From Fictibacillus arsenicus (lineage in GTDB: Bacteria > Bacillota > Bacilli > Bacillales > Fictibacillaceae), in assembly GCF_001642935.1 (NCBI RefSeq), contig NZ_CP016761.1, forward strand, positions 1,984,001-2,048,000: a stretch of 64,000 bases of DNA. The letters are read 5' to 3'. The notes below the pieces were generated by a model. That model searched no databases. It saw nothing but the letters and a program-made list of their open reading frames with translations, and was not told the origin of the DNA. Below are positions 4,750 through 41,377 of the stretch, in pieces (the first letter of the stretch is position 1; every line of letters starts with the position of its first letter). A program made the translations under genes and the position numbers.

Positions 4750-5448
4750 TCAAACTATATCTTGGTAAGTCGTTCTGCTTTTTAAAAGGGCATAGATCCA
4801 GTGTAAGAGCTTATTTACACATGCAATAACGGCTACTCTAAAGGGTTTGCCTTCGTCGCGTTTCTTATCATAGAATTCACGCAGTTTCTTGTTTCTAGGG
4901 ATGATTTCATCGGTTGTTTTTTGCTTTCGTGCATCTCGGATGCCACATCTGACAGCCAAATACAAGGCTAGTCTTAATCTACTGGATCCACGCTTGGTGA
5001 TGCGGTTAACGGATGCAGTAAATCTATCTGAAGAATAGACAATAGGGTCTACTCCTGCGAACGCAACCAACTTCTTAGGGTGATTAAACCTTTCTATCTC
5101 GCCAATCTCTGAAATGATTGTTGCTGCAATCTTTTCTCCAATACCAGGGATAGATTGGATAATTTTATATTCTTCAATTTCTTTCGCGAGAGCATCTATT
5201 TCTGCTGCTAACATGGATAGATGCTCTTCGTATTGAAGAACGATGTTAATGAGCATCTTGAGATTAAAAATAAGACTCTCATATAAGTTGTTCTGAAAAG
5301 GATTACGTAATGCGGCTTCTCTTAATTTCTGAGCTTTGTCTACTGCCCATTTCTCTGAACGGCTCCTACATAACGAAGCGATTGTATCTTTCAATTCGGC
5401 TTCACTTGCTTGTAAGACGGTTTCGGATGTTGGAAAAGCTTCTAACAT
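4750..5448 (-). pseudogene. IS110-family transposase remnant (C-terminal half only)
   Basis: 232 residues remain of a transposase that is normally about 400. The surviving part is the C-terminal Transposase_20 region: IQSIPGIGEKIAA and the downstream FAGVDP stretch are typical of IS110/IS116/IS902. The N-terminal RuvC-like DEDD catalytic domain is absent; the sequence above 5448 codes for nothing like it. Without that domain it cannot act. No element ends can be recognised. The remnant sits at the start of the accessory block with other broken genes. Confidence 0.85.
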
Positions 5449-16199: not shown

Positions 16200-17402
16200 A
16201 TGATTACCAGAGGGGATTTTTTTATGATTAAAGATATGTTTAAAAGAGGAATGTCTATTTCATCAATTGCTAGAGAACTAGAACTTGATCGTGGAACAGT
16301 GAGGAAGTATGTAAACGCCTCTGCAGCTCCTTCGAAGCAAAACCGCAAAAAGTTAAAAAGCAAACTGGATCCTTATAAAGAATATCTTCATCAAAGAATG
16401 TTGGAGGATGGTGTATATAATGGTGAACGTTTATTAGACGAAATCAGACAGTTGGGATATACCGGTGGAAAGACCATTTTGAAGGACTACATAAAACCCT
16501 TTCGAGATAAGGAGAGAAAAAAGTATTCGGTACGTTATGAAACGTTACCAGGTGAACAAATGCAAGTGGACTGGAAAGAGATCGGGGAAATCATTCTCGG
16601 TGGTGAAAGAATTAAGCTGTCTATGTTTGTCGCAACACTAGGCTATTCCAGAATGAAATATGCGGAGTTTACGATATCACAAGATCAAGAACATGTTCTA
16701 CAGTGCTTGATTAATAGCTTTAAATATTTCGGCGGTGTTCCTCAGAAGGTGCTGTTTGATAATATGCGCACAGTAACTGATGGACGAGACCAAGGACTTG
16801 TGAAATGGAATGCTAGGTTTGCCGAGTTCGCAGCTTACTACGATTTTATTCCAAAAGCTTGTAGGCCCTACCGGGCTAAAACGAAAGGAAAAGTGGAACG
16901 AGCCATTCAGTATATAACGAACAATTTTTATGTCGGAACCACTTTTGATTCCATTGAAGATTTAAATTGTCAGGTAGAACGTTGGCTAGACCGGATTGGC
17001 AATCGTAAAAAGAATGATACCACAGGGATTTCACCACAGGAGCGATGGTCTGAAGAAAAGCTGGGTTCTCTACAAAAGCTTGATTATGATACAAGTTATC
17101 GTGTTTATCGGAAAACACATTTTGATAGTACTTTGTCTTATAAAGGTCATAAATGGCTGCTTCCAAAAGAATTTGCAATAAAAGAAATTCTAGTGAAAGA
17201 ATCGCTATCTGGAGTGATGTGTTTCTATTATCAAGGTGAAGAAATTACGGCCATACAAACATCTGCATCTGTTATTTCTTTAGCAGACCAAATAAAAAAG
17301 AAACAGAGTGCCGTGGTTGCCGCCCCGCATTCTGTTCCCACAATACCGGTAAACACTCGTTCTCTCACCGTTTATGACGACCTCGTGAGAGGTGAATCAT
17401 GA
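16200..17402 (+). CDS. istA: IS21-family transposase IstA
   Basis: 400 residues. An N-terminal helix-turn-helix (MSISSIARELELDRGTVRKY) is followed by an rve integrase core with EQMQVDWKEIGE (first Asp) and FGGVPQKVLFDNMRTV (second Asp), and KGKVERAIQYITNNF with the catalytic Glu. GAGGAG lies 9 bases before the ATG at 16200; a second in-frame ATG is at 16224. It cuts and joins the element ends together with IstB, whose gene overlaps by 4 bases. Confidence 0.95.
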   Translation: MITRGDFFMIKDMFKRGMSISSIARELELDRGTVRKYVNASAAPSKQNRKKLKSKLDPYKEYLHQRMLEDGVYNGERLLDEIRQLGYTGGKTILKDYIKPFRDKERKKYSVRYETLPGEQMQVDWKEIGEIILGGERIKLSMFVATLGYSRMKYAEFTISQDQEHVLQCLINSFKYFGGVPQKVLFDNMRTVTDGRDQGLVKWNARFAEFAAYYDFIPKACRPYRAKTKGKVERAIQYITNNFYVGTTFDSIEDLNCQVERWLDRIGNRKKNDTTGISPQERWSEEKLGSLQKLDYDTSYRVYRKTHFDSTLSYKGHKWLLPKEFAIKEILVKESLSGVMCFYYQGEEITAIQTSASVISLADQIKKKQSAVVAAPHSVPTIPVNTRSLTVYDDLVRGES

Positions 17403-18154
17403 ACGAAAACATGAATGAGTATTGCCGAAAGCTAAACTTGTCTGTTATCGCTGAACAATGGTCAGCGATTGCCGATCAAGCAGCTAAAAATAATGTACCA
17501 TATTCTTCGTTTCTCTTCAGCCTTTTAGAAGCAGAAGTCATTGAAAGACATCAAAGAACGACCAAAACACTTATTAAGCTTTCGAAACTTCCGTTCCGAA
17601 AGACACTAGATGAATTTGATTTTACGGTTCAGCCCTCTATTGATGAACGGCGAGTAAAGGAATTAATGACCTTGTCCTTCTTAAAGAACCATGAGAATCC
17701 TATCTTCTTAGGCCCACCCGGAATTGGAAAAACACATCTAGCTGTTTCCATCGGACTGCAAGCCATCTCTCATGGATATAAAACATATTTTATTTCAGCT
17801 CATGATCTTGTATCGCAATTAAGGAAAGCAGACCTTGATCAAAAGCTAGAAAAGAAACTTCGATCTTTTGTAAAACCAAGCCTACTCATCATAGACGAGA
17901 TGGGCTATATGAAACTTGATAACCACAGTGCTCATTACTTGTTCCAAGTGATTGCACGGCGTTACGAAAGAGGGTCAATTATTCTTACATCCAACAAATC
18001 ATTTGGTGAATGGGGGGATATCATCGGGGATCCAGTTATTGCGACTGCCATGTTAGATCGACTTTTACATCACTCACGCATATACAACTTAAATGGAGAA
18101 AGTTATCGGATGAAAGAAAAGAAGTTACAGAACGAAAAACAGAAGGGTTCGTAA
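17399..18154 (+). CDS. istB: IS21-family helper ATPase IstB
   Basis: 251 residues. The AAA+ Walker A is FLGPPGIGKTHLA (about residues 101-113), Walker B is LLIIDEMGY and sensor 1 is ILTSNKSFGEW. IstB assembles on target DNA and stimulates IstA. Its ATG overlaps the istA stop (ATGA). Full length for the family, about 250 residues. Confidence 0.95.
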   Translation: MNENMNEYCRKLNLSVIAEQWSAIADQAAKNNVPYSSFLFSLLEAEVIERHQRTTKTLIKLSKLPFRKTLDEFDFTVQPSIDERRVKELMTLSFLKNHENPIFLGPPGIGKTHLAVSIGLQAISHGYKTYFISAHDLVSQLRKADLDQKLEKKLRSFVKPSLLIIDEMGYMKLDNHSAHYLFQVIARRYERGSIILTSNKSFGEWGDIIGDPVIATAMLDRLLHHSRIYNLNGESYRMKEKKLQNEKQKGS

Positions 18155-24095: not shown

Positions 24096-24133
24096 GTTCT
24101 AATTGCTTAAAGCGTCAAAAAAGGATGATGATT

Positions 24134-25177
24134 ATGAACGATATACAAACGATCCAGATAAATGAAATAGATTCTGATTCACATCTGCTTTTTGATGTCA
24201 GATCTCCAAAAGAATATGAAGAATATCATATCCCTGGTGCAAAATGCTTAAGTATTTTTTCAAATGATGAAAGAGCAGAGATTGGAACGATTTATAAGCA
24301 AATTAGCAAAGAACAAGCGATTGAACGCGGACTGGAGATTGCAGCTCCGAAACTTCCGGAATTGTTAAAAAAGATTAAGAACGAAATGGTCAATAATCCA
24401 GATAAGCAGGTTGTGATCTATTGTGCGAGAGGCGGAATGCGTTCTAAAAGTATTGCTCAAACAATGTCTATCTTGGGTATAGATTGTTTACAGCTGGATG
24501 GCGGGATACGTTCTTATAGGAAGCAAATTGAAAAAATGCTTGAGGAGTATGCTCAAAATCCGAAAAAAATCATAGTTATTGAAGGCTATACTGGGACTAT
24601 GAAAACTAAATTTTTGGAGAAGCTGCAGGATGAAGGCTATCCGGTTATAAATTTAGAGGGAATGGCTAGTCATAAAGGGTCAATTTTTGGAAGAATTGGA
24701 GAAGATCCAGCTTCACAGAAAAAATTTGAATCAAGATTGTTTGAGCGTTTAAAGGCACTAAAAGACTCTCCTGTTTTAATTATTGAATCTGAAAGTAAAA
24801 GAATTGGAAGGGTTGTAGTTCCCGAATTCTTGCTAGAAGGAAAGTATTCAGGCACCCGAATCCATATTGATATGCCTTTTGGAATGCGAGTAAAATATAT
24901 TTGTGATGTATATGATCCGCTGTTTCATAGGGAAGAAATCGAAGAAGCAGTCCTGAAACTCTCTAAAAGAATTCCGTTTCCTATTATGACGGAGATCGAA
25001 GAAGCACTCACACAACAAGATTATGAAAAAGTCGTTTCTTTCTTACTTGAAAATTATTATGATCCAAAGTATGAGTTTGCCGAACAAAAATATGAAAGTC
25101 AATGTATCAAAGTGTGTGGGGATTCCTTTGATTACCTTTACAACGAAATTAAGAACGAAATTAACAAAATTCTTTAA
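24134..25177 (+). CDS. mnmH (selU): tRNA 2-selenouridine synthase
   Basis: 347 residues. The N-terminal rhodanese domain has FDVRSPKEYEEYHIPGA and YCARGGMRSKS; its Cys is residue 97 from the chosen start, as in E. coli SelU. A C-terminal P-loop-like domain follows (about residue 150 on). The enzyme replaces sulfur by selenium in 2-thiouridine of the wobble base of Lys, Glu and Gln tRNAs, using selenophosphate made by SelD. The P-loop reads GYTGTMKTK, so the Gly before Lys is Met. The ATG at 24134 has AAGGA at an 8-base spacing; ATGs at 24125 and 24128 are closer. It lies alone between two terminators, 7 kb from the other selenium genes. Confidence 0.9.
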   Translation: MNDIQTIQINEIDSDSHLLFDVRSPKEYEEYHIPGAKCLSIFSNDERAEIGTIYKQISKEQAIERGLEIAAPKLPELLKKIKNEMVNNPDKQVVIYCARGGMRSKSIAQTMSILGIDCLQLDGGIRSYRKQIEKMLEEYAQNPKKIIVIEGYTGTMKTKFLEKLQDEGYPVINLEGMASHKGSIFGRIGEDPASQKKFESRLFERLKALKDSPVLIIESESKRIGRVVVPEFLLEGKYSGTRIHIDMPFGMRVKYICDVYDPLFHREEIEEAVLKLSKRIPFPIMTEIEEALTQQDYEKVVSFLLENYYDPKYEFAEQKYESQCIKVCGDSFDYLYNEIKNEINKIL

Positions 25178-32253: not shown

Positions 32254-32350
32254 TGGCGGGACCATGTGGGAATCGAACCCACCGGAGACGGCACGCGCCT
32301 CCCAAAAGGTTTTGAAGACCCAGGCAAGCACCAGCTACACATCTGGCCCC
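32254..32350 (-). tRNA. selC: tRNA-Sec (anticodon UCA)
   Basis: 97 bases including an encoded CCA. The 5' end is GGGGCCAG; the 3' end is TGGTCCCG plus CCA, giving seven clear acceptor pairs, with the eighth mismatched as I read it. The anticodon loop CTTCAAA contains TCA (plus-strand 32313-32315). A long variable arm (GGGAGGCGCG...CCGTCTCC) and a GTGGG TTCGATT CCCAC T-arm are typical of selenocysteine tRNA, which is longer than other tRNAs. It reads UGA codons in selD and the Rdx gene nearby. The selB operon starts 850 bases away in the other direction. Confidence 0.93.
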
Positions 32351-32398
32351 AAGATATGCGTTGATATAAACGAGAGATTTCATTTATTCACAAAGACT

Positions 32399-32427
32399 AG
32401 TATAGACTATTGAAATTTAAAATCCAA
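32399..32427 (-). promoter_or_regulatory. Candidate promoter for tRNA-Sec
   Basis: On the minus strand TTGGAT (32427-32422) and TATACT (32404-32399) are 17 bases apart, about 48 bases before the tRNA. The -10 is good and the -35 partial. Confidence 0.45.
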
Positions 32428-32550
32428 GTACATTGTTTTTACATTCAAAAAAATCGAAGGTGGGGGAGGCGAGTTTCGATTTTTTAAGAGGAGAAATTAG
32501 ATAGAAGGTAAAGATGATCTTCTATTAATTTTTCTTAGTATTAGAATCTT

Positions 32551-32890
32551 TTCTAAAAGATTGTTGCTACAGAGAGTTTTTAAGAACTTCTTCATATGAA
32601 TAGTTAATTGAAGCGGAAGGGCGAGACTCCAGCAGGATGAGTGGGACTTTTGAAAAGCGGAAGCGGCTCGTACAGCCCCGACAAGCAAAAGGTGAATGGG
32701 CTAAGAAGGCGCTCTTTGCCTTCATGACCATTTAACTTTTGACCTCGAGGGGCTAGCCGCTGCAGCTAGACTGGTGAGACCATTCAATGACGCAAAGCGG
32801 CGAATGGGCTCACCGCACACCCTGCGGAAAGGGAGTCCTGAAGCGGAAATTAACCTCTATCAAAAGCATCAATGTATACGAAAACAGCCT
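32551..32890. repeat. MITE-like repeat, copy B
   Basis: About 340 bases. The left end TTCTAAAAGATTGTTGCT is identical to 62807-62824 in copy D. The right end AGCATCAATGT, then AAAACAGCC, is nearly the inverse of the GATTGTTGCT part. Inside are AAGCGGAAGGGCGAGACTCC, GGGCTCACCGC and a GCGGAAAGGGAGTCCTGAAG stretch shared with copies C and D. No protein is encoded. It fills most of the space between tRNA-Sec and selB. Confidence 0.75.
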
Positions 32891-32990
32891 GCTATTATAA
32901 CCACACTCACCACTGATACAGTTTGGTGATCTCGACTATAACAGTTCACCTTATATAACAGCCTGAAATTCACACTATAACAGTTCCTCC

Positions 32991-33025
32991 TGTGGACAAC
33001 TGTGAATAACTTTAATTGTGGATAA
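32991..33025 (+). promoter_or_regulatory. Cluster of three DnaA-box-like sites
   Basis: TGTGGACAA (32991-32999), TGTGAATAA (33001-33009) and TGTGGATAA (33017-33025) are in one orientation. The third is the complement of the perfect box TTATCCACA, the second matches TTATTCACA, and the first has one mismatch. They lie about 180 bases upstream of selB. Confidence 0.6.
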
Positions 33026-33200
33026 CCTGTGTGTATCCAGCGGTGAATATTTATACATCTATGCATAAAGAGCGCGGGAAATAATTTTGTTTGACCAATG
33101 CGAAATGATAATATGAATATAAACTAAGTTATAAATCTTGTGTTTTTACATCTGTTTTCATAAAGTGTAAAAGAGTATGTAAATATAGGTGGTTTAAACG

Positions 33201-35090
33201 ATGACAATAAACTATTATACAATCGGCATGGCTGGACATATCGACCATGGAAAAACAACCCTTACTAAAGCATTGAGCGGTGTTGATACAGATACTTTGA
33301 AAGAAGAGAAAGCACGGAAAATCACTATAGAACCAGGTTTTGCACCCTTTCCTTTAACGGACAGCATTCATACATCAATTGTAGATGTGCCTGGTCATGA
33401 AAAATTAATTCGCCAGATGATTGCGGGAGTTGCTGGAATCGACTTGGTATTGTTGGTCATAGCTGCTGATGAGGGTGTCATGCCCCAAACGAGAGAACAT
33501 TTTGAGATTCTTTCATTTCTTGATATACAAAAGGGAATGATTGTTGTTACAAAGTCCGATTTAATTGATGATGAAATGAAACTCCTAATAGAAGATGAGA
33601 TCTCTGAGCTTACTAATGATTCTGTCTTTCAATCGTTTCCCGTTCATTTCGTTGATAGTCTTTCTATGAATGGTATTGATGATTTAAAAAAATCAATTGC
33701 TAGTTATTTGGAGGATACAGAAACGAGATCTGCGTCCGGACCTTTCCGCTTACCGATCGACCATATTTTTACGGTGAAAGGACAAGGGACTGTTGTAAGA
33801 GGTACAGTGTACGAAGGTGAGGTTCATGAAGGTGATGAGCTGGAGATTCAGCCAGGAGACGAAAAAGTTAAAGTAAGAAAACTGCAGGTTCACAAAGAGA
33901 ATGTACAGAATGCAAGAGCAGGTCAAAGAGCCGCGATAAATCTTTCTGGAGGCTCGAAGCTGGATTGGAAAAGAGGTCATGTCTTACTGACACCAGGTGT
34001 TTTTTCAGTGACAGATACAGTTGATCTTGTTTTAACAACGGGTAAAGAATGGGCTGGGAAATTAAAGCAACGAACACAAATTAAGTTTTATACAGGAACA
34101 GCTGAAGTAATGGGGAAACTCATATTCTTTGATAGAAAGGAACTTGAAAACTCTGCAGATTATGTTTTTTGCCAAGTGCGTTTAGACGAACCAATCGTAA
34201 CGAAGCGAGGCGACCGTTTTATTATTCGCCGGCCTTCTCCTGAAGAAACAATTGGAGGCGGAGAAGTAATTGATTCAAACGGAGCTGCTTATAAATTTGG
34301 GATTGGTACGATTCGAATGCTTCAGGATAAATTCGAGGGAACACCTAGTGAAAGAGTTATACAAACACTTCAGAAAAAAGGATCTTTGACAACAGGAGAA
34401 TTAGTGAAACTTACTGGTATTGAAGAACCTGTATTAGATAAGGTTTTACAAGAACTTATAGAGTTAAAGGCAGTTTTTTATATGAGTGGCTATTATAATG
34501 ATGAAGCAACAATGAAACTAGCAGAAACTGATCTTATTCAAAAATTAACTGTGTTTCACGAAGAATATCCTTTAAGGCAAGGTATTCCAAAGGCAGAGGT
34601 TGTACAATCGTTAAAAGGCAAGCTTCACCAGAAAGTAAGCAGTGGTTATATTGAGAAATTAATACAGTTATCTACTATTAGAATAACTGACCAATTTGTT
34701 CATTTGCCGGCATTTAAACCGCACTTCCCGAATAAATGGGAAAAACGCATGTCCCAAGTTGCAAATATCCTAGAAGAAAAGCAGTTTGAACCTGATGATT
34801 TGCTGTCAATCTATCAAGCACATCAATTGCCAGAAAATCTTTATTCGGATTTTAAGTATTTTTTAATTAATCATGGTAAAGCACTTGTTTTGTTTGACGA
34901 TGTATTAATTGGGAAGGATACATTCGATTCTGCAGTCGATCTGTTAAAAAGCCAGACAGAGCAAAGTTTTACTGTTCAAGAGGCAAAAAATGTTCTCAAT
35001 ACTTCTAGAAAGTTTTTGATTCCGATTTTGGAATGTATGGATTCAAAAGGGTATACTGTGAGAGATGCTAACTTAAGGAAATGGGTGTAA
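33201..35090 (+). CDS. selB: Selenocysteine-specific elongation factor SelB
   Basis: 629 residues, the usual length. The GTPase domain shows G1 GHIDHGKT (12-19), G3 DVPGHE and G4 TKSD. EF-Tu-like domains 2 and 3 follow (HIFTVKGQGTVVRGTV, about residue 188). The C-terminal third is a set of winged helices that bind the SECIS hairpin in mRNA. SelB carries Sec-tRNA to the ribosome at UGA. GGTGGTTTAAACG precedes the ATG; the spacing is slightly long. It heads an operon with the glycosyltransferase and the ABC importer; the next start is 3 bases after its stop. Confidence 0.97.
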   Translation: MTINYYTIGMAGHIDHGKTTLTKALSGVDTDTLKEEKARKITIEPGFAPFPLTDSIHTSIVDVPGHEKLIRQMIAGVAGIDLVLLVIAADEGVMPQTREHFEILSFLDIQKGMIVVTKSDLIDDEMKLLIEDEISELTNDSVFQSFPVHFVDSLSMNGIDDLKKSIASYLEDTETRSASGPFRLPIDHIFTVKGQGTVVRGTVYEGEVHEGDELEIQPGDEKVKVRKLQVHKENVQNARAGQRAAINLSGGSKLDWKRGHVLLTPGVFSVTDTVDLVLTTGKEWAGKLKQRTQIKFYTGTAEVMGKLIFFDRKELENSADYVFCQVRLDEPIVTKRGDRFIIRRPSPEETIGGGEVIDSNGAAYKFGIGTIRMLQDKFEGTPSERVIQTLQKKGSLTTGELVKLTGIEEPVLDKVLQELIELKAVFYMSGYYNDEATMKLAETDLIQKLTVFHEEYPLRQGIPKAEVVQSLKGKLHQKVSSGYIEKLIQLSTIRITDQFVHLPAFKPHFPNKWEKRMSQVANILEEKQFEPDDLLSIYQAHQLPENLYSDFKYFLINHGKALVLFDDVLIGKDTFDSAVDLLKSQTEQSFTVQEAKNVLNTSRKFLIPILECMDSKGYTVRDANLRKWV

Positions 35091-35093
35091 GGA

Positions 35094-36122
35094 TTGAAAG
35101 ATAGTGCATTAAAAGTAATGTTTTTCACCCCGTATTTTCATCAAAATCGCGGGAATTCAACGACAGCGAGAAGAATTCAGCACGGTTTAAAAAAAGAGAA
35201 TGTTTCTGTTTTCGTGTATGCGTATGAAGAAGAAGATCTCACACAAGAGGTTCGTGATCAAATGGAAAATGCAGATGTTTTTCATATATTGCAATTTGCC
35301 CGTTTTTTAAAATGGTCACAAAAACATCAAATTGAATTGAATAAACCTTACATGATCACTTCCGGCGGAACAGATATTAACCATTCGTTAAAAGAGGATG
35401 AAAAAATCTATGCGCCTCTTTTACATAAAGCAAAGGCAGTTACAGTATTTACTGAAAAGGCAAAAGAATCACTCGTAAATAATCATGGATTTTCAAATGA
35501 GGTCATACATGTGATACCGCAAAGTGTCTATTTACCTGAAAAAGCGGATGAGGAAAAGCTAATTCTGCCTGAAGGCAATCCAAGAATTTTACTGCCTGCC
35601 GGTTTGCGGAGTATCAAAGATGTGCTCTATGCAATTCCTGCTTTAGTAAAATTAAAAGCTGAATATCCGCAAATTGTGTTTTTGATATTAGGAGCAAACC
35701 TGGATGAAGCGGTATATGAAGAAGTTAGAAATGCCTGCGTAAAATATGAATGGCTTCATTATCTGCCTGAAATAGATTTGGCTAAGATGAAAGAAGTTTA
35801 CCAGTGGGCTGACATTGTTATAAATACATCTATTTCAGAAGGACAGCCAACTTCTTTGCTGGAGGCAATGATCGAACATAAACCTGTTATAGCTAGAGAT
35901 AACACAGGAAATACAAGTATTATTCAGCACAAAAAAAACGGCATGATATTTCGTGACGTAAAAGGACTGTATGATTCTTTGAAACAACTAGTATCAGATA
36001 AAGCTTTTGCACAAAAAGTGATCCAAAACGGGTATCAGACAGTAACAGAGAACCACACTATGGATAAGGAAATCAAATCATACGTCACTTTGTATGAAAC
36101 AATAAAGGAGAGAAATAAATGA
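35094..36122 (+). CDS. GT4-like glycosyltransferase, candidate selenosugar synthase (SenB-like)
   Basis: 342 residues, GT-B fold. The N-terminal half has TPYFHQNRGNSTTARR (12-27), a GNxxTAxR motif, and SGGTDI (about 90-95). The C-terminal half has GLRSIKDVL and the sugar-nucleotide motif EGQPTSLLE (about 249-257), followed by a GN stretch. As I remember SenB, the selenosugar synthase of selenoneine synthesis, it shares GNxxTAxRW, TGTD, LRxxKDP and the late GN. SenB joins selenophosphate to a UDP-sugar. Here the gene starts 3 bases after selB and overlaps the importer gene by 4, so a selenium role is likely. The exact product is inference. The start is TTG 35094, although AAGGA is right against it; ATG 35118 is an alternative. 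Confidence 0.72.
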   Translation: MKDSALKVMFFTPYFHQNRGNSTTARRIQHGLKKENVSVFVYAYEEEDLTQEVRDQMENADVFHILQFARFLKWSQKHQIELNKPYMITSGGTDINHSLKEDEKIYAPLLHKAKAVTVFTEKAKESLVNNHGFSNEVIHVIPQSVYLPEKADEEKLILPEGNPRILLPAGLRSIKDVLYAIPALVKLKAEYPQIVFLILGANLDEAVYEEVRNACVKYEWLHYLPEIDLAKMKEVYQWADIVINTSISEGQPTSLLEAMIEHKPVIARDNTGNTSIIQHKKNGMIFRDVKGLYDSLKQLVSDKAFAQKVIQNGYQTVTENHTMDKEIKSYVTLYETIKERNK

Positions 36123-37012
36123 AAAAATTAGGTTTGTTGTTTGTAATTCTAGCACTGTTAGTATCTGCATGCGGTACAAAGGAAGAAAATAAAGATAAAG
36201 ATGCAGGCAATAAAGATGGAGTGTTCACAATAGGAGTTATTCCTGCTCAAACAGAAGGTGAAATGAAGGGAGCGCTTGATAAGCTTCAGAATATTTTGAG
36301 CGAAAAAATGGATCGTGAAGTAAAGATCACTTCTTACCCTGACTACAATGGAGTAGTAGAAGCAATGAATTATGAGAAGATTGATATGGCATATTTCGGG
36401 CCTCTTACATATGTTGTTGCGCAGGAGGAAAGCGGAGCAAAAGCGATCGTAACACAGCTGATAAAAGGAGAACCATTTTATTATTCTTACTTAATTACTC
36501 ATAAAGACAGTAAATATGAAAATATTGACGATATGATTAAAGATGTCAAAAATGTAAGATTTGCTTTTGGTGACCCTTCTTCAACATCTGGTTCATTAAT
36601 TCCGGGTATCAAGCTTAAAGATGAAGGTGTTTATAAGAGTGAAGCTGAGAATGATTTTAAAAATGTAAGATTCACTGGATCACATGATGCTACTGCACTT
36701 GCCGTCCAAAACAAACAAGTTGATGTCGGGGCGATCGATAGTGCCATCTATGACAAGCTTGTGGAAGAAGGAACAGTTGATGGCAAACAGTTTAAGGTGA
36801 TTTGGAAGTCTGAAAAACTGTTTCAATATCCTTGGGCCGTTGCAAAAAATACAGACAAGGAAACAATGAAACAGCTGCAAGATATTTTCTTAAGTATTAA
36901 AGACAAAGAGATCCTTGATGCATTCGGAGCCACCGGTTTTACGAAAGCGGAGAACAAAGATTATGAAAGTATCCGCAAGGCGGCTATAAAAGAAGGTATG
37001 ATCCAAGAATAG
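36119..37012 (+). CDS. PhnD-like substrate-binding lipoprotein, probably for a selenium or phosphorus oxyanion
   Basis: 297 residues. The signal peptide ends in VSAC (Cys18), so it is a lipoprotein on the outer face of the membrane. GVIPAQTEGEM, DYNGVVEAM, DMAYFGPLTYVVA and the FGDPSSTSGSLIP serine-rich binding loop (about residue 150) are PhnD/TIGR01098 features. PhnD relatives bind phosphonate, phosphite or related oxyanions. One clade linked to selD genes is, as I recall, annotated as putative selenate binding. The operon with selB favours a selenium oxyanion; a phosphonate cannot be excluded. Its ATG overlaps the glycosyltransferase stop by 4 bases. Confidence 0.8.
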   Translation: MKKLGLLFVILALLVSACGTKEENKDKDAGNKDGVFTIGVIPAQTEGEMKGALDKLQNILSEKMDREVKITSYPDYNGVVEAMNYEKIDMAYFGPLTYVVAQEESGAKAIVTQLIKGEPFYYSYLITHKDSKYENIDDMIKDVKNVRFAFGDPSSTSGSLIPGIKLKDEGVYKSEAENDFKNVRFTGSHDATALAVQNKQVDVGAIDSAIYDKLVEEGTVDGKQFKVIWKSEKLFQYPWAVAKNTDKETMKQLQDIFLSIKDKEILDAFGATGFTKAENKDYESIRKAAIKEGMIQE

Positions 37013-37021
37013 AGGGGAACA

Positions 37022-37780
37022 ATGGTTTGGTTTAAAAAGAGACAATTCTTTGTCTTTCTCATCATTGCAGTTCTCGCAGCTTATAGTATGAGATTGACAG
37101 AGTTCGACCTTTCTAAGTTTCGGGACTTTGAAAATATGGGAGACTTTCTTTCAAAATGGTTTCCAATGAACACAGAAAGTCTTCCTTACTTATTTACAGA
37201 AAGTGTTTTGACGATATCAATCGCATTTTTGGGGAGTTTATTCGGATTGATCATTGCACTTCCATTAAGCTTTTTTGCAGCACGAAATACGAGCGGGCAT
37301 CGTATTATTTTTGCGGCAACCCGCTTTTATCTAAGTTTTTTACGTTCTGTTCCAGAGTTTGTATTTGGCTTGATATTATTAACCACATTAGGACTCGGTC
37401 CCTTTCCGGCCGTAATCGCGATTGTACTGCATAACATCGGAGTGCTAGGAAAGCTCATCTCAGAGCTGATTGAAGCGGCTGATAAAGGTCCGATGGAAGC
37501 GATGTCTGCTGTAGGGGCTAAACGCTGGATCGGTAATTTATTTGCCATCCTGCCTCAAATCTGGCCAAATGTTCTGTCTCAGTTTTTTTACCGATTCGAA
37601 GTTGCTATCCGGACATCCCTTATATTAGGTCTGATAGGCGGAGGCGGAATCGGGCAGCAGCTTTTTATTCATTTTAAAACATTTCAATATCAGCTAGTGT
37701 CTGTAGATGTTCTGTTAATAATGATCATGGTTATTTTAGTAGATTACATTGGCGGAAAAATACGGGAAAAGGTTATTTAG
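37022..37780 (+). CDS. PhnE-like ABC permease
   Basis: 252 residues with six membrane segments. The cytoplasmic EAA loop (EAADKGPMEAMSAVGAKRWIGN, about residues 152-173) contacts the ATPase. LGLIGGGGIGQQL near residue 205 is typical of PhnE. It forms the channel of the importer. AGAGGGGAACA precedes the ATG, 9 bases after the binding-protein stop. A single permease gene implies a homodimer, whereas phosphonate systems may have one or two. Confidence 0.85.
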   Translation: MVWFKKRQFFVFLIIAVLAAYSMRLTEFDLSKFRDFENMGDFLSKWFPMNTESLPYLFTESVLTISIAFLGSLFGLIIALPLSFFAARNTSGHRIIFAATRFYLSFLRSVPEFVFGLILLTTLGLGPFPAVIAIVLHNIGVLGKLISELIEAADKGPMEAMSAVGAKRWIGNLFAILPQIWPNVLSQFFYRFEVAIRTSLILGLIGGGGIGQQLFIHFKTFQYQLVSVDVLLIMIMVILVDYIGGKIREKVI

Positions 37781-37788
37781 GTGGTAAG

Positions 37789-38526
37789 ATGATTAAATTC
37801 GAAAATGTTTCAGTTTTATATCCTGGTGCAGCAGAACCAGCCTTGAAAAATTTGAGCATCCATTTTAACCAAGGGGAGTTCGTTTGTGTATTAGGCAAGA
37901 GCGGTGCAGGGAAATCTACGTTTATTCGCTGCATTAATGGACTTCAGCCGGTATCAGAAGGAACGGTAAAATGGAATGATAAATCGCTGTCAGAAATGAC
38001 TCCTAAAGAGAATTTAGAGATTCGACGCAAGACGGGAATGATTTTTCAGCATTTTAACTTGATTCCAAGAATGAGTGTTGTTCAAAATATCTTAACAGGG
38101 TTGTTTGGCTATAAAAAATCCTATGAAAATCTACTGGGGTTATTTAATTCTAATGAAAGAATGTCTGCTTTAGAAGCAATTGATCAAGTTGAATTAACAG
38201 TGGAGCCAACCAGAAGAGTAGAGAATCTGAGCGGGGGACAAAAGCAAAGGGTAGCAATAGCGAGGGCTCTTATTCAAAATCCTAATGTATTCCTAGGAGA
38301 CGAACCTGTTGCAAGTTTAGATCCCGGTACTGCTGAGAGAATTTTTCATCTTTTAAAAGAAACACATATAAAGCGAAACTTAGTATCCATTATCAATGTT
38401 CATGATGTTGGCCTTGCAAAAAAATTCGCGACAAGAATTATTGCATTGAAAAAAGGAAGGCTCATTTTCGATGGCGCCCCAGAAAAATTTGACGAAAAAC
38501 TCTATGCTGAGACATATAACCAGTAA
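37789..38526 (+). CDS. PhnC-like ABC importer ATPase
   Basis: 245 residues. Walker A is LGKSGAGKSTF (about 35-45), the Q-loop is GMIFQHFNL, the signature NLSGGQKQRVAIARAL and Walker B VFLGDEPVASLDP. The H-loop residue is in NVHDVG. FNLIPRMSVVQNILTG is usual in PhnC. It powers the importer made with the two preceding genes. AGGTGGTAAG precedes the ATG. It is the last gene of the selB operon; the terminator behind it also serves the convergent selD. Confidence 0.9.
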   Translation: MIKFENVSVLYPGAAEPALKNLSIHFNQGEFVCVLGKSGAGKSTFIRCINGLQPVSEGTVKWNDKSLSEMTPKENLEIRRKTGMIFQHFNLIPRMSVVQNILTGLFGYKKSYENLLGLFNSNERMSALEAIDQVELTVEPTRRVENLSGGQKQRVAIARALIQNPNVFLGDEPVASLDPGTAERIFHLLKETHIKRNLVSIINVHDVGLAKKFATRIIALKKGRLIFDGAPEKFDEKLYAETYNQ

Positions 38527-38527
38527 A

Positions 38528-38556
38528 AAAACTCCGGAAATCCGGAGTTTTTTTAT
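38528..38556. terminator. Bidirectional terminator between the importer ATPase gene and selD
   Basis: AAACTCCGG pairs with CCGGAGTTT around AAAT, with A and T runs on the two sides. Confidence 0.93.
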
Positions 38557-39608
38557 TTAGCAATAATCGGCTTTTCAGTTAGTTCTGTAACTTTTCCAAC
38601 AATACTTGCATTCTTTCTGCCTTTTGCATGAAGACGTTTGATATACTCATCTGCTTCATCTTTAGGCATGCTCACTAATAGTCCCCCGGAAGTTACGGCA
38701 TCGCATAGTATATGCTGCTGCCATACCTCGAGATGATCATCATACTTCACGTCTTCTTGAATCCAGCGATGGTTTGCTTTTGATCCGCCAGGGACGACCC
38801 CTTCTTGAGCGAGTTCTATTGTGCCAGGAAGTAAAGGTACGTCTTCAAAATTGATGTGTATTGAAATGCCTCCGGTGCCTTTAGCCATTTCGGTGGCATG
38901 ACCGAGCAGGCCGAATCCAGTAACATCTGTTACAGCATGAGGTGAAAGGCCTTCTAAACATTCGGCAGCTGTTTTATTTAATTCTGCCATCGTTTCAGTC
39001 ACAAGCTGAAGCTGTTCAGATGTAAGTTTGTCTTTTTTAATAGCGGTTGTCTGGATTCCTACACCAATCGGCTTCGTTAAAACAAGTGCATCACCTGGCC
39101 TTGCACCAACATTTTTGAAAACCTTAGAAGGGTGTACGAGTCCGGTTACAGATAGACCAAATTTAGGCTCAGCATCGTCTATGGAATGTCCGCCTACAAG
39201 GACTGCACCAGACTCTTTTACTTTGTCTGCAGCACCTTTAAGAATTTCTGCTAATACATCGTGACCTAATACCGCTATCGGGAAACCTACGATATTCATC
39301 ACGGTAGTGGGACGTCCGCCCATCGCGTAGACATCGCTTAAAGAATTTGCAGCAGCAATCTGACCAAACATATACGGGTCGTCAACGATCGGGGTGAAGA
39401 AATCAACAGTTTGTATCATAGCAAGTTCATCTGTTAATTTATAAACTCCGGCATCGTCGGATGTATCAAGACCTACTAAAAGGTTAGGGTCATATTCTCT
39501 TTCTGGTAAATGACGCAAAACTTGCGCCAGGTCTTCAGGACCAATCTTGCATCCTCAGCCACCTTTTGATGACAGATGGGTAAGCTTTACTTTGTCTTTG
39601 CTCGTCAT
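38553..39608 (-). CDS. selD: Selenophosphate synthase containing selenocysteine (Sec18)
   Basis: 351 residues including Sec. From ATG 39608, preceded by AGGAGG, the reading is MTSKDKVKLTHLSSKGG-U-GCKIGP, with an in-frame TGA at 39557-39555. Reading from the first Met after the TGA (39518) would lose the active site. The UGC position is the Cys/Sec17 site of known SelD; the next Lys is the catalytic one. TSDDAGVY, GGHSID and TGFGLLGH are family motifs. It makes selenophosphate from selenide and ATP. A hairpin follows the UGA. It is convergent with the importer and divergent from the Rdx gene. Confidence 0.96.
39530..39557 (-). promoter_or_regulatory. Candidate bacterial SECIS hairpin in selD
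   Basis: After the UGA come 12 bases, then GGUC-CUGAA-GACC (minus strand, 39542-39530). The loop G is 19 bases after UGA, within the usual 16-37 range. The stem is short, four pairs. Confidence 0.6.
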
Positions 39609-39701
39609 TTGTATAACGCACCTCCTATAGGTAGTATAAACAATTTTTTTGTTTATTGGCTAAGGATATACTAAAATAGTCTTAAAAAAGGAGGATGAAT
39701 G

Positions 39702-39938
39702 ATGAAAGTAAGTATCGAATTCTGCATGATGTGAAACTTTGCACCAAAAGCCGCGAGTCTCGCGGAGGACCTTTTTAGCCATTTCCGTTCACAAATTCCA
39801 TCACTTGAGCTTTTACCTAGTTCAGGCGGGGTATTTGAAGTATCTGTTAATGGCAGTAAAATCTATTCGAAAAAAGAAACAGGAGAATTTCCTGATCACG
39901 ATTGGATCATTCAAGAACTTGAAAAATTGAATGCTTAA
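39702..39938 (+). CDS. Rdx/SelW-type selenoprotein with CxxU motif
   Basis: 78 residues including Sec11, hidden by an in-frame TGA at 39732-39734. The start MKVSIEFCMM-U-NFAPKA gives C8-M-M-U11, the redox motif of the SelW/SelT/SelH (Rdx) family after the first beta strand. GGVFEVSVNGSKIYSKKETGEFP matches the family's C-terminal half, in which a Lys/Thr-rich strand precedes Pro. Members have thioredoxin-like folds and act as thiol redox proteins. GGAGG lies 7 bases before ATG 39702; ATG 39699 is an alternative. It is 56 bases before selA and divergent from selD. A SECIS-like hairpin follows the UGA. Confidence 0.93.
39732..39765 (+). promoter_or_regulatory. Candidate bacterial SECIS hairpin in the Rdx gene
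   Basis: UGA, 16 bases, then CCGCG-AGUCU-CGCGG (39751-39765). The G in the loop is 23 bases after the UGA. The stem is five G/C pairs with the outer A and G bases unpaired. Confidence 0.75.
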
Positions 39939-39994
39939 ATGGAAAGATCCTCCTTTAAGGATATCTGTTTAAGCCTTTTAGGAGGAGTTTCATT

Positions 39995-41377
39995 TTGATA
40001 AAATCAAACCTTTTAAGGCAGTTGCCTGCGGTTCATGAAGTCACTAAAGAAATCAGTCTTGAAATGAATGGTAAAAATGAAAAGGAAATAACACGTGCTG
40101 TTCAGGACGCAATAGCATTCTGGCGCAATCGTATACAAACTGATTGGAATTCCATTGACTTGAACGCTGATATTCAGGGACTCATCAAAGAAACTATTAG
40201 AAAAAAATTAGCCAGTCCTAAAAATCAGATTCGAACGGTTATAAACGCAAGCGGTGTAGTGATCCACACTAATATGGGAAGATCAAGGCTAAGTGAAAGC
40301 GCCGTTAAAAGGATGACAGAAACAGCCTATATGTATTCGAATCTGGAGTATAACTTAGAACAAGGAAAAAGAGGTTCAAGACACGATCTGACAGAGGATT
40401 TAATAAAGAAATCGACTGGTGCAGAAGCAGTACTTGTAGTAAATAATAATGCTGCTGCGGTTTATCTTATTTTAAAAGCTCTTGCGAAAAATAAGGAAGT
40501 TATTGTTTCCAGAGGCGAGCTTGTTGAGATAGGCGGGTCCTTCCGTGTGTCATCAATCATGGAAGAAAGCGGTGCGCTTTTAAAAGAAGTGGGCACCACG
40601 AATAAAACTCATTACGCCGACTATGAAAAAGCCATAAATGAAAATACAGGCATGGTGATGAAAGTACATACGAGCAATTTTAAAGTTATTGGATTCACAA
40701 AAAATGTTTCTTCAGCTGAGTTGATGAAACTAAAAGCAGATTCACCGGAAGTTATCATCTATGAAGATTTGGGGAGCGGGGCACTTTATCCATTTCAAGC
40801 GCATGGAATCGGTGAGGAACCTTTAGTTTCTTCTATAATTAATCAGGGAATTGATTTAGTTTCTTTTAGTGGTGATAAGCTGTTAGGAGGTCCGCAGGCA
40901 GGGATCATTGCAGGTAAAAAGAAATATATAGATATTTTAAAGAAACATCAGCTCGCACGTGTGCTTCGTGTAGATAAATTTACAATCGCAGCATTGAATG
41001 AAACTTTAAATTCCTATCTTAATGAAGATTTTTTATCGATTCCGACCGTACGGGATATTTTAAAAACGCCAGATGAGATTAAAATAAGAACACTTGAATT
41101 AATGGGGCAGATTCATAATCGGGATAATTTAAAGACGGATATCATTGAAGAATTTTCAAAAGTTGGCGGAGGCACAATGCCTGAAGTGAAATTGCCAACA
41201 TATTGCCTCGTTTTAAAACATGATAACGGTGCATCTTATTTGGCAAACCTGTTACGCGAAACCCGAGTGCCGGTAATTGTTAGAATTAAAGATGACGAAG
41301 TTCTGCTGGATCTAAGAACAGTTACAGAGGAAGAAGAATCAATTCTAATAGAAGCGATAAATTCAGTTACTGCTTAA
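39995..41377 (+). CDS. selA: L-seryl-tRNA(Sec) selenium transferase
   Basis: 460 residues, standard length. PLP-fold enzyme that turns Ser-tRNA(Sec) into Sec-tRNA(Sec) with selenophosphate. INASGVVIHTNMGRSRLSE (about residue 82) and VSFSGDKLLGGPQAGII carry the PLP site; the Lys is near residue 295, as in E. coli. The start is TTG 39995, with GGAGGAG about 9 bases before. It follows the Rdx gene by 56 bases and may be co-transcribed with it. A terminator follows at 41465. Confidence 0.97.
   Translation: MIKSNLLRQLPAVHEVTKEISLEMNGKNEKEITRAVQDAIAFWRNRIQTDWNSIDLNADIQGLIKETIRKKLASPKNQIRTVINASGVVIHTNMGRSRLSESAVKRMTETAYMYSNLEYNLEQGKRGSRHDLTEDLIKKSTGAEAVLVVNNNAAAVYLILKALAKNKEVIVSRGELVEIGGSFRVSSIMEESGALLKEVGTTNKTHYADYEKAINENTGMVMKVHTSNFKVIGFTKNVSSAELMKLKADSPEVIIYEDLGSGALYPFQAHGIGEEPLVSSIINQGIDLVSFSGDKLLGGPQAGIIAGKKKYIDILKKHQLARVLRVDKFTIAALNETLNSYLNEDFLSIPTVRDILKTPDEIKIRTLELMGQIHNRDNLKTDIIEEFSKVGGGTMPEVKLPTYCLVLKHDNGASYLANLLRETRVPVIVRIKDDEVLLDLRTVTEEEESILIEAINSVTA

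Follow-up and report, generated by a model that had tools for sequence, protein, structure and literature searches.

The DNA considered here is a stretch of 64,000 nucleotides of Fictibacillus arsenicus (the window, that is, the whole stretch analysed; G000:C1:1984001-2048000 of a 4.06 Mb genome), which carries at 32254-41377 an island of selenium genes that includes a family-4 glycosyltransferase (GT) and a PhnDEC-like importer. What is new is the GT, a member of a SenB-related family tied to the decoding of selenocysteine (Sec). A preliminary description, made from the letters alone, had named tRNA-Sec, selB, the GT, the importer, selD, an Rdx selenoprotein and selA between these limits, and ARAGORN, Rfam and curated family models find each of them in its place (Table 1). 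The Sec-decoding set, composed of selA, selB, selD and tRNA-Sec, lies over the curated cut-offs in all four cases; the remaining island genes pass as well, although for the GT and for the binding protein of the importer this is true only of broad ones.

Table 1. Features of the selenium island, with mnmH, in window coordinates
Feature	Position	Strand	Evidence
tRNA-Sec gene	32254..32350	-	ARAGORN, anticodon tca; Rfam RF01852 58 bits, cut-off 47, at 32258-32350
selB, selenocysteine-specific elongation factor	33201..35090	+	TIGR00475 361.4 bits, cut-off 242.25
SenB-related family-4 glycosyltransferase (GT), predicted Se-glycosyltransferase	35094..36122	+	NF038229 231.2 bits; TIGR04348 75.6 bits; GT-B model; residue map
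PhnD/PtxB-like substrate-binding lipoprotein, predicted selenite binder	36119..37012	+	TIGR01098 220.6 bits, cut-off 112.05; pocket map
PhnE-like permease	37022..37780	+	TIGR01097 248.3 bits, cut-off 216.7
PhnC-like ATPase	37789..38526	+	TIGR02315 281.8 bits, cut-off 266.1
selD, selenophosphate synthetase, Sec at codon 18	38553..39608	-	TIGR00476 414 bits, cut-off 125, TGA read as Sec
Rdx/SelW-like selenoprotein, CMMU motif	39699..39938	+	TIGR02174 61.8 bits, cut-off 34.2; PF10262 76.3, cut-off 22.6
selA, selenocysteine synthase	39995..41377	+	TIGR00474 538.6 bits, cut-off 267.9
mnmH, tRNA 2-selenouridine synthase, outside cluster	24125..25177	+	NF008750 338.9 bits, cut-off 241

The island encodes the Sec-decoding trait, and two of its genes contain an in-frame UGA at which the insertion of Sec is predicted, namely selD (in the motif GGUGC) and the Rdx gene (at codon 12). 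The RNA folds 3' of both codons are unremarkable when compared with shuffled sequences (Rdx z 0.46, selD z -1.28).

The genes selB, GT, phnD, phnE and phnC follow one another at spacings of 3, -4, 9 and 8 bases, values that the coordinates reproduce exactly as first given, and they are likely co-transcribed. The preliminary description had gone further and proposed a single unit for the uptake, activation and use of selenium, which has to be given up. selD is on the strand opposite to the importer genes, lies tail to tail with phnC and does not belong to their unit, and another forward-strand stretch is made up of Rdx and selA; judged by this layout, the island has three transcription units or more, not counting the tRNA gene. 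A scan for promoters and terminators returned fewer sites than in shuffles. The link to mnmH does not hold in the form proposed: this gene belongs to the same selenium economy, but here it is not in the cluster, lying 7 kb upstream of the tRNA-Sec gene with further genes in between; in Ammoniphilus-type loci it is in the cluster. The interval between the tRNA-Sec gene and selB also holds a non-coding stretch (window 32600-32860), presumably a dispersed repeat of bacilli, which it resembles by eye.

The neighbourhood was compared across species by scanning a one-genome-per-species collection with the GT alignment and keeping the best 80 of 85 relatives, which represent 78 distinct loci; these were picked by the GT alone, and some are cut by contig ends. 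In 52 of the 78, selB lies immediately 5' of the GT gene, and in 55 the fetched locus includes selA, selB or selD. PhnD is present in 43, always alongside a sel gene. The full set (selB-GT, PhnD, selD, Rdx and selA) occurs in 37 loci, including all 12 from Fictibacillus, the genus that supplies the GT rows nearest to the window protein. This grouping exceeds chance. Random neighbourhoods in related genomes had been named beforehand as the outcome that would speak against a selenium system; the comparison shows instead that other Bacillaceae keep the gene order and that the neighbourhoods are not random.

Re-built arrangements are also found. The GT stands with phnDEC but away from selB in five genomes of a second sample (398 genomes of the class), with the order GT-phnD-phnE-phnC in L092, L094, L095 and L112 and GT-selD-phnD-phnE-phnC in L108, while L056, L057 and L117 have the order selA, GT, selD, mnmH. 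The gap between the GT gene and selD was viewed in 11 loci, and a LysR-type frame was seen by eye in 8, in 6 of which (L017, L020, L022, L031, L034 and L068) it replaces the importer; the gap holds nothing of 60 aa in L048 and L063 and one short frame in L062. Two of the LysR proteins were scanned and are LysR_Sec_metab (302.7 and 299.3 bits, cut-off 250). Those extra frames that are present in the gaps between or beside island genes of the 15 loci viewed looked unrelated by eye.

Some single loci deserve separate mention. In Bacillus sp. FJAT-27225 the GT is spread over two frames (L071:9989-10970), which is either a frame-shifted gene or an assembly error. Second, divergent SelD-like genes (41-42% identity) occur apart from the main selD at L113:2714-3673 and L118:6785-7756, where they adjoin frames resembling LysR regulators. 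Two genomes of genus g66 share an in-frame TGA at one and the same position of a GT gene whose frame is otherwise intact (L094:10467-11520, minus strand; L112:5650-6677, plus strand); both genes precede phnDEC, both genomes have selA and selD, and each has a hairpin some 20 bases downstream. These GTs may themselves be selenoproteins or selenium-dependent read-through genes. The GT of G149 was flagged for a TGA as well and was rejected, since the stop sits before the start codon and not inside the gene.

No protein of the organism's own genome other than the island's binding protein matches TIGR01098, which makes it the only PhnD-family binder there. It stays below the cut-offs both of the PhnD equivalog TIGR03431 (220.8 bits against 261.1) and of the putative selenate binder TIGR04553 (189.3 bits against 250), the latter scoring 141-178 bits with eight relatives. 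The importer is like PtxBCD and PhnDCE in passing the TIGR01098, PhnE and PhnC cut-offs and in keeping the oxyanion pocket of PtxB; it is unlike them in missing the PhnD equivalog cut-off, in two pocket positions and in its selenium neighbourhood. The pocket was counted in 48 proteins (the window protein, the products of 5 relocated genes and those of 42 island loci, L018 being left out of the 43 because no frame was called for its PhnD). All 48 keep Y100, the STS triplet (which we take to have a role in the PtxB pocket), H160 and Y208; D22 is found in none, an A, S or T standing in its place, and every one of them has D where PtxB has S178. In Te_PtxB, Y100 and H160 belong to the oxyanion pocket and the capping Y208 is held by D22 (PMC5700983, available text). 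Judged by its shape, a pocket for a pyramidal XO3 ion would suit selenite better than the tetrahedral selenate.

One could instead suppose that the importer carries phosphite or phosphonate and merely shares an operon, so that only the GT and the sel genes would concern selenium. The best relatives of the binding protein in the Protein Data Bank (PDB) are phosphite binders, it retains the oxyanion and capping residues of PtxB, and it misses the curated selenate-binder model, all of which would be expected of such an importer. We nevertheless regard this as unlikely, if the most serious of the alternatives, because the importer stands with sel genes in 43 of the 43 GT loci that have it and is re-linked to the GT elsewhere, and because D22 and S178 of PtxB are uniformly changed. 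It also speaks against a phosphonate importer that the C-P lyase gene phnJ was not found in the genome, in a search that did not extend to phosphonatase or phosphite dehydrogenase.

The GT was described at first as SenB-like. This stands in so far as it is a relative of SenB that has most of the key residues, and fails in so far as it is not SenB by the curated cut-off of TIGR04348 (300 bits), its second-best family and the best among those that are characterised. The best-scoring family is NF038229, with a cut-off of 400 bits that is not reached either, and BshA (TIGR03999) gives 50.5 bits against a cut-off of 273.7. NF038229 represents the GPMC system glycosyltransferase of Geobacter and Pelobacter; a Geobacter relative (L074), whose genome has selA and selD, scores 389.2 bits with it. 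The gene of this relative (L074:7226-12187) lies between frames that by eye resemble an MBL-fold hydrolase and a homoserine acetyltransferase, with no sel gene near. Nothing was found on the term "GPMC system" in the open-access literature searched.

Residues were mapped over 185 family rows, a set that includes near-identical proteins and in which the protein and locus collections overlap; L077 is outside both this map and the tree, as it has no GT frame of 280 aa. The residues of SenB for selenophosphate, sugar and catalysis have been assigned by docking and mutants (PMC10891094 and PMC10702425, in the text available). R61, T85, D86, R155 and the catalytic K158 are kept in all 185 rows, and N20, T23, Q131, E231 and E239 in 184. 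Position 58 is H in 160 rows and Q in 25, the window protein being among the latter (Q67), while T83 is G in all 185 (G91 in the window protein), and H235, L209 and T214 are not kept. The selenophosphate pocket (N20, H58, R61, T83, T85 and R155) is thus retained at 5 of 6 positions in the family and at 4 of 6 in the window protein; the H58Q variant of SenB is recorded as lowered, not abolished, in activity (PMC10891094, same limits). The EGGAHV motif is absent, with EGQPTS in its place in the window protein, and H235 is mostly T, S or L in the family.

In sum, the GT shares with SenB (TIGR04348; PDB 8FBX, 8JJN and 8K5U) the GT-B fold, the GN-x-x-T motif and R61, Q131, R155, K158, E231 and E239, and it is tied to SelD genes just as SenB is coupled to SelD/SenC (PMC10702425, as far as its text is available). 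It differs in its score far below the cut-off, in T83, in the missing EGGAHV motif, in the lack of a SenA partner and in its neighbours, which are selB, selA and the importer.

The predicted structure of the GT (pLDDT 94.7) has this GT-B fold and matches BshA slightly better than SenB; BshA, trehalose transferase, MshA and SenB all fall within 3 Z units of one another, and Foldseek gives a like result, so that the acceptor is not settled by structure alone. BshA, the bacillithiol glycosyltransferase, has the closest overall fold and a UDP-sugar chemistry, and it is conceivable that the GT acts in the manner of BshA or MshA, adding a sugar to a C or O acceptor in the first step towards a low-molecular-weight thiol or glycoside that helps in reducing or carrying selenium, and forming no Se-C bond itself. 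We consider this improbable. SenB outscores BshA by family model and also by the wider-family profile, for which SenB is the best PDB match and is aligned from the N-terminal domain onward; the GN-x-x-T motif and R61 match SenB, whereas the BshA alignment begins past that motif. Nor was any thiol-pathway gene seen in the islands viewed. When the PDB was searched with the profile of the N-terminal domain alone, SenB chains were not among the hits; for this half, the resemblance to SenB therefore depends on the wider alignment, and phmmer with the single GT sequence did not list SenB at 0.001.

The association of the GT with Sec decoding can be separated from gene order. Among the 398 genomes of the class, where GT calls were made at 200 bits or more (the next match has 103.6 bits), 44 have the GT, 85 have selA over the cut-off and 120 have selD. 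selA is present in 41 of the 44 GT genomes versus 44 of the 354 others (Fisher p 2e-28) and, counted by genus, in 24 of 25 GT genera versus 36 of 120 others (p 4e-10); since neither species nor genera are independent, these p-values are a guide only. selD is present in 40 of the 44, with G043 having selA without selD. The three GT genomes that lack selA belong to one genus and are the lowest-scoring of the 44, apart from tie order (212-216 bits), and none of them has selD over the cut-off. No GT was found in the 36 genomes of the class with selD but without selA. The GT therefore tracks selA and not selD alone, a pattern suggesting a product of use to cells in which a pool of selenophosphate is maintained for Sec.

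The wider collection extends this beyond what had been claimed for the island. In 23 of the 78 GT loci the stretch that was fetched lacks any sel gene, and in 19 of these the genome carries selA and selD elsewhere (Geobacter, Amycolatopsis, Luteitalea and a planctomycete among them); the exceptions are L075, L076 and L077 (1.1-1.4 Mb) and L081, a metagenome assembly. The GT thus follows the Sec trait even when it is not adjacent, and also outside Bacillota. A skeptic might hold that common descent alone keeps these neighbourhoods together and that the GT works at the cell surface, or in some other function that has nothing to do with selenium. Family-4 glycosyltransferases mostly build polysaccharides, most of the 78 loci come from related Bacillaceae, and an aconitase gene is likewise conserved beside the island; yet the association with selA persists without adjacency, by genus and in the re-built arrangements, which makes this explanation very improbable. 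The linkage is stronger than could be known from the window.

There is hardly any chance that the GT feeds selenoneine synthesis through a distant SenA/EgtB partner, in the way that SenB supplies its selenosugar to SenA (PMC10702425, available text), as SenA is over the cut-off in 0 of the 398 genomes, a match of at least 290 bits to its model (the level of EgtB) occurs in just 4 of the 44 GT genomes, and the match in the organism's own genome is EgtB (573 bits, cut-off 360, versus 352.6 bits and a cut-off of 420 for SenA), even though an egtD (419.6 bits, cut-off 290.9) lies side by side with egtB (L120, G000:C1:927712 onward) and the organism probably makes ergothioneine, with hercynine at hand.

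Three further observations concern the window and genome at large. An IS21 transposase and helper pair lies at window 16200-18154 (310.1 and 293.3 bits, over the cut-off), and the C-terminal part of an IS110 transposase at 4750-5448 is barely below its cut-off (139.8 bits against 140). The genome has two formate dehydrogenase alpha subunits over the cut-off, L125 (G000:C1:2138770-2140776) and L126 (1016590-1018593), which are not Sec enzymes since they have no in-frame stop.

We propose, with a probability of about 0.5, that the island combines an importer for selenite with a Sec-linked Se-glycosyltransferase, the latter making a selenosugar that would serve as a putative buffer or reserve. 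SelD makes selenophosphate from selenide, SelA uses it to form Sec-tRNA and SelB brings Sec into protein, roles that are established for these families. Upstream of them, PhnDEC would import selenite, and general cell thiols are assumed to reduce it to selenide. Homology, residues and co-occurrence suggest that the GT would join a UDP-sugar and selenophosphate to give a selenosugar, selenium being attached to the sugar; a selenosugar product is plausible on these grounds. Most speculatively, and as the weakest step, the selenosugar might buffer surplus selenophosphate at high selenium and prevent a build-up of reactive selenide during Sec synthesis. What we observe is a linked set of genes, a GT that co-occurs with selA and selD, and SenB and PtxB pockets most of whose residues are conserved; that the ligand is selenite, the acceptor selenophosphate and the product a selenosugar is what we infer.

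Two findings qualify this proposal. The GT is missing from 44 of the 85 genomes with selA, and it is therefore not necessary for Sec. In addition, R61, which separates SenB and the clade of the window GT from eight far relatives that lack it (and sets the window GT, itself under the 400-bit cut-off, apart from NF038229), is no simple marker of selenium use, because five of the eight come from selA genomes (L073, L074, L078, L079 and L080), with L073, Alkalicoccus urumqiensis, having both selA and selD. A broader statement, that a selenosugar branch run by a SenB-related GT forms part of the Sec trait in several phyla, stores or buffers selenophosphate without depending on selenoneine and is joined in Bacillaceae by a dedicated selenite importer, is put forward tentatively, as a possibility a little short of an even chance.

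Comparable predictions have been made before. The use of selenium by YedE, YedF, LysR_Se and DUF3343 was predicted from neighbourhood in PMC5322559, of which part of the text is available; the argument is of the same kind as ours, and the LysR_Sec_metab matches in relatives of the island agree with the LysR_Se type predicted there. That part names neither the island GT nor a PhnDEC importer and mentions a glycosyltransferase once, as a STRING partner of YedE. Only plant work was found in the open-access literature searched for bacterial selenosugars and the comparative genomics of selenocysteine.

SenB is called the only identified Se-glycosyltransferase in the available text of PMC10891094. 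If our reading is true, there would be a second, larger family of such enzymes, tied to SelA and not to SenA, and selenium sugars would be wider spread among Sec-decoding bacteria. The GPMC glycosyltransferase would gain a function, and the PtxB-type importer would provide bacteria with a candidate system devoted to the uptake of selenite.

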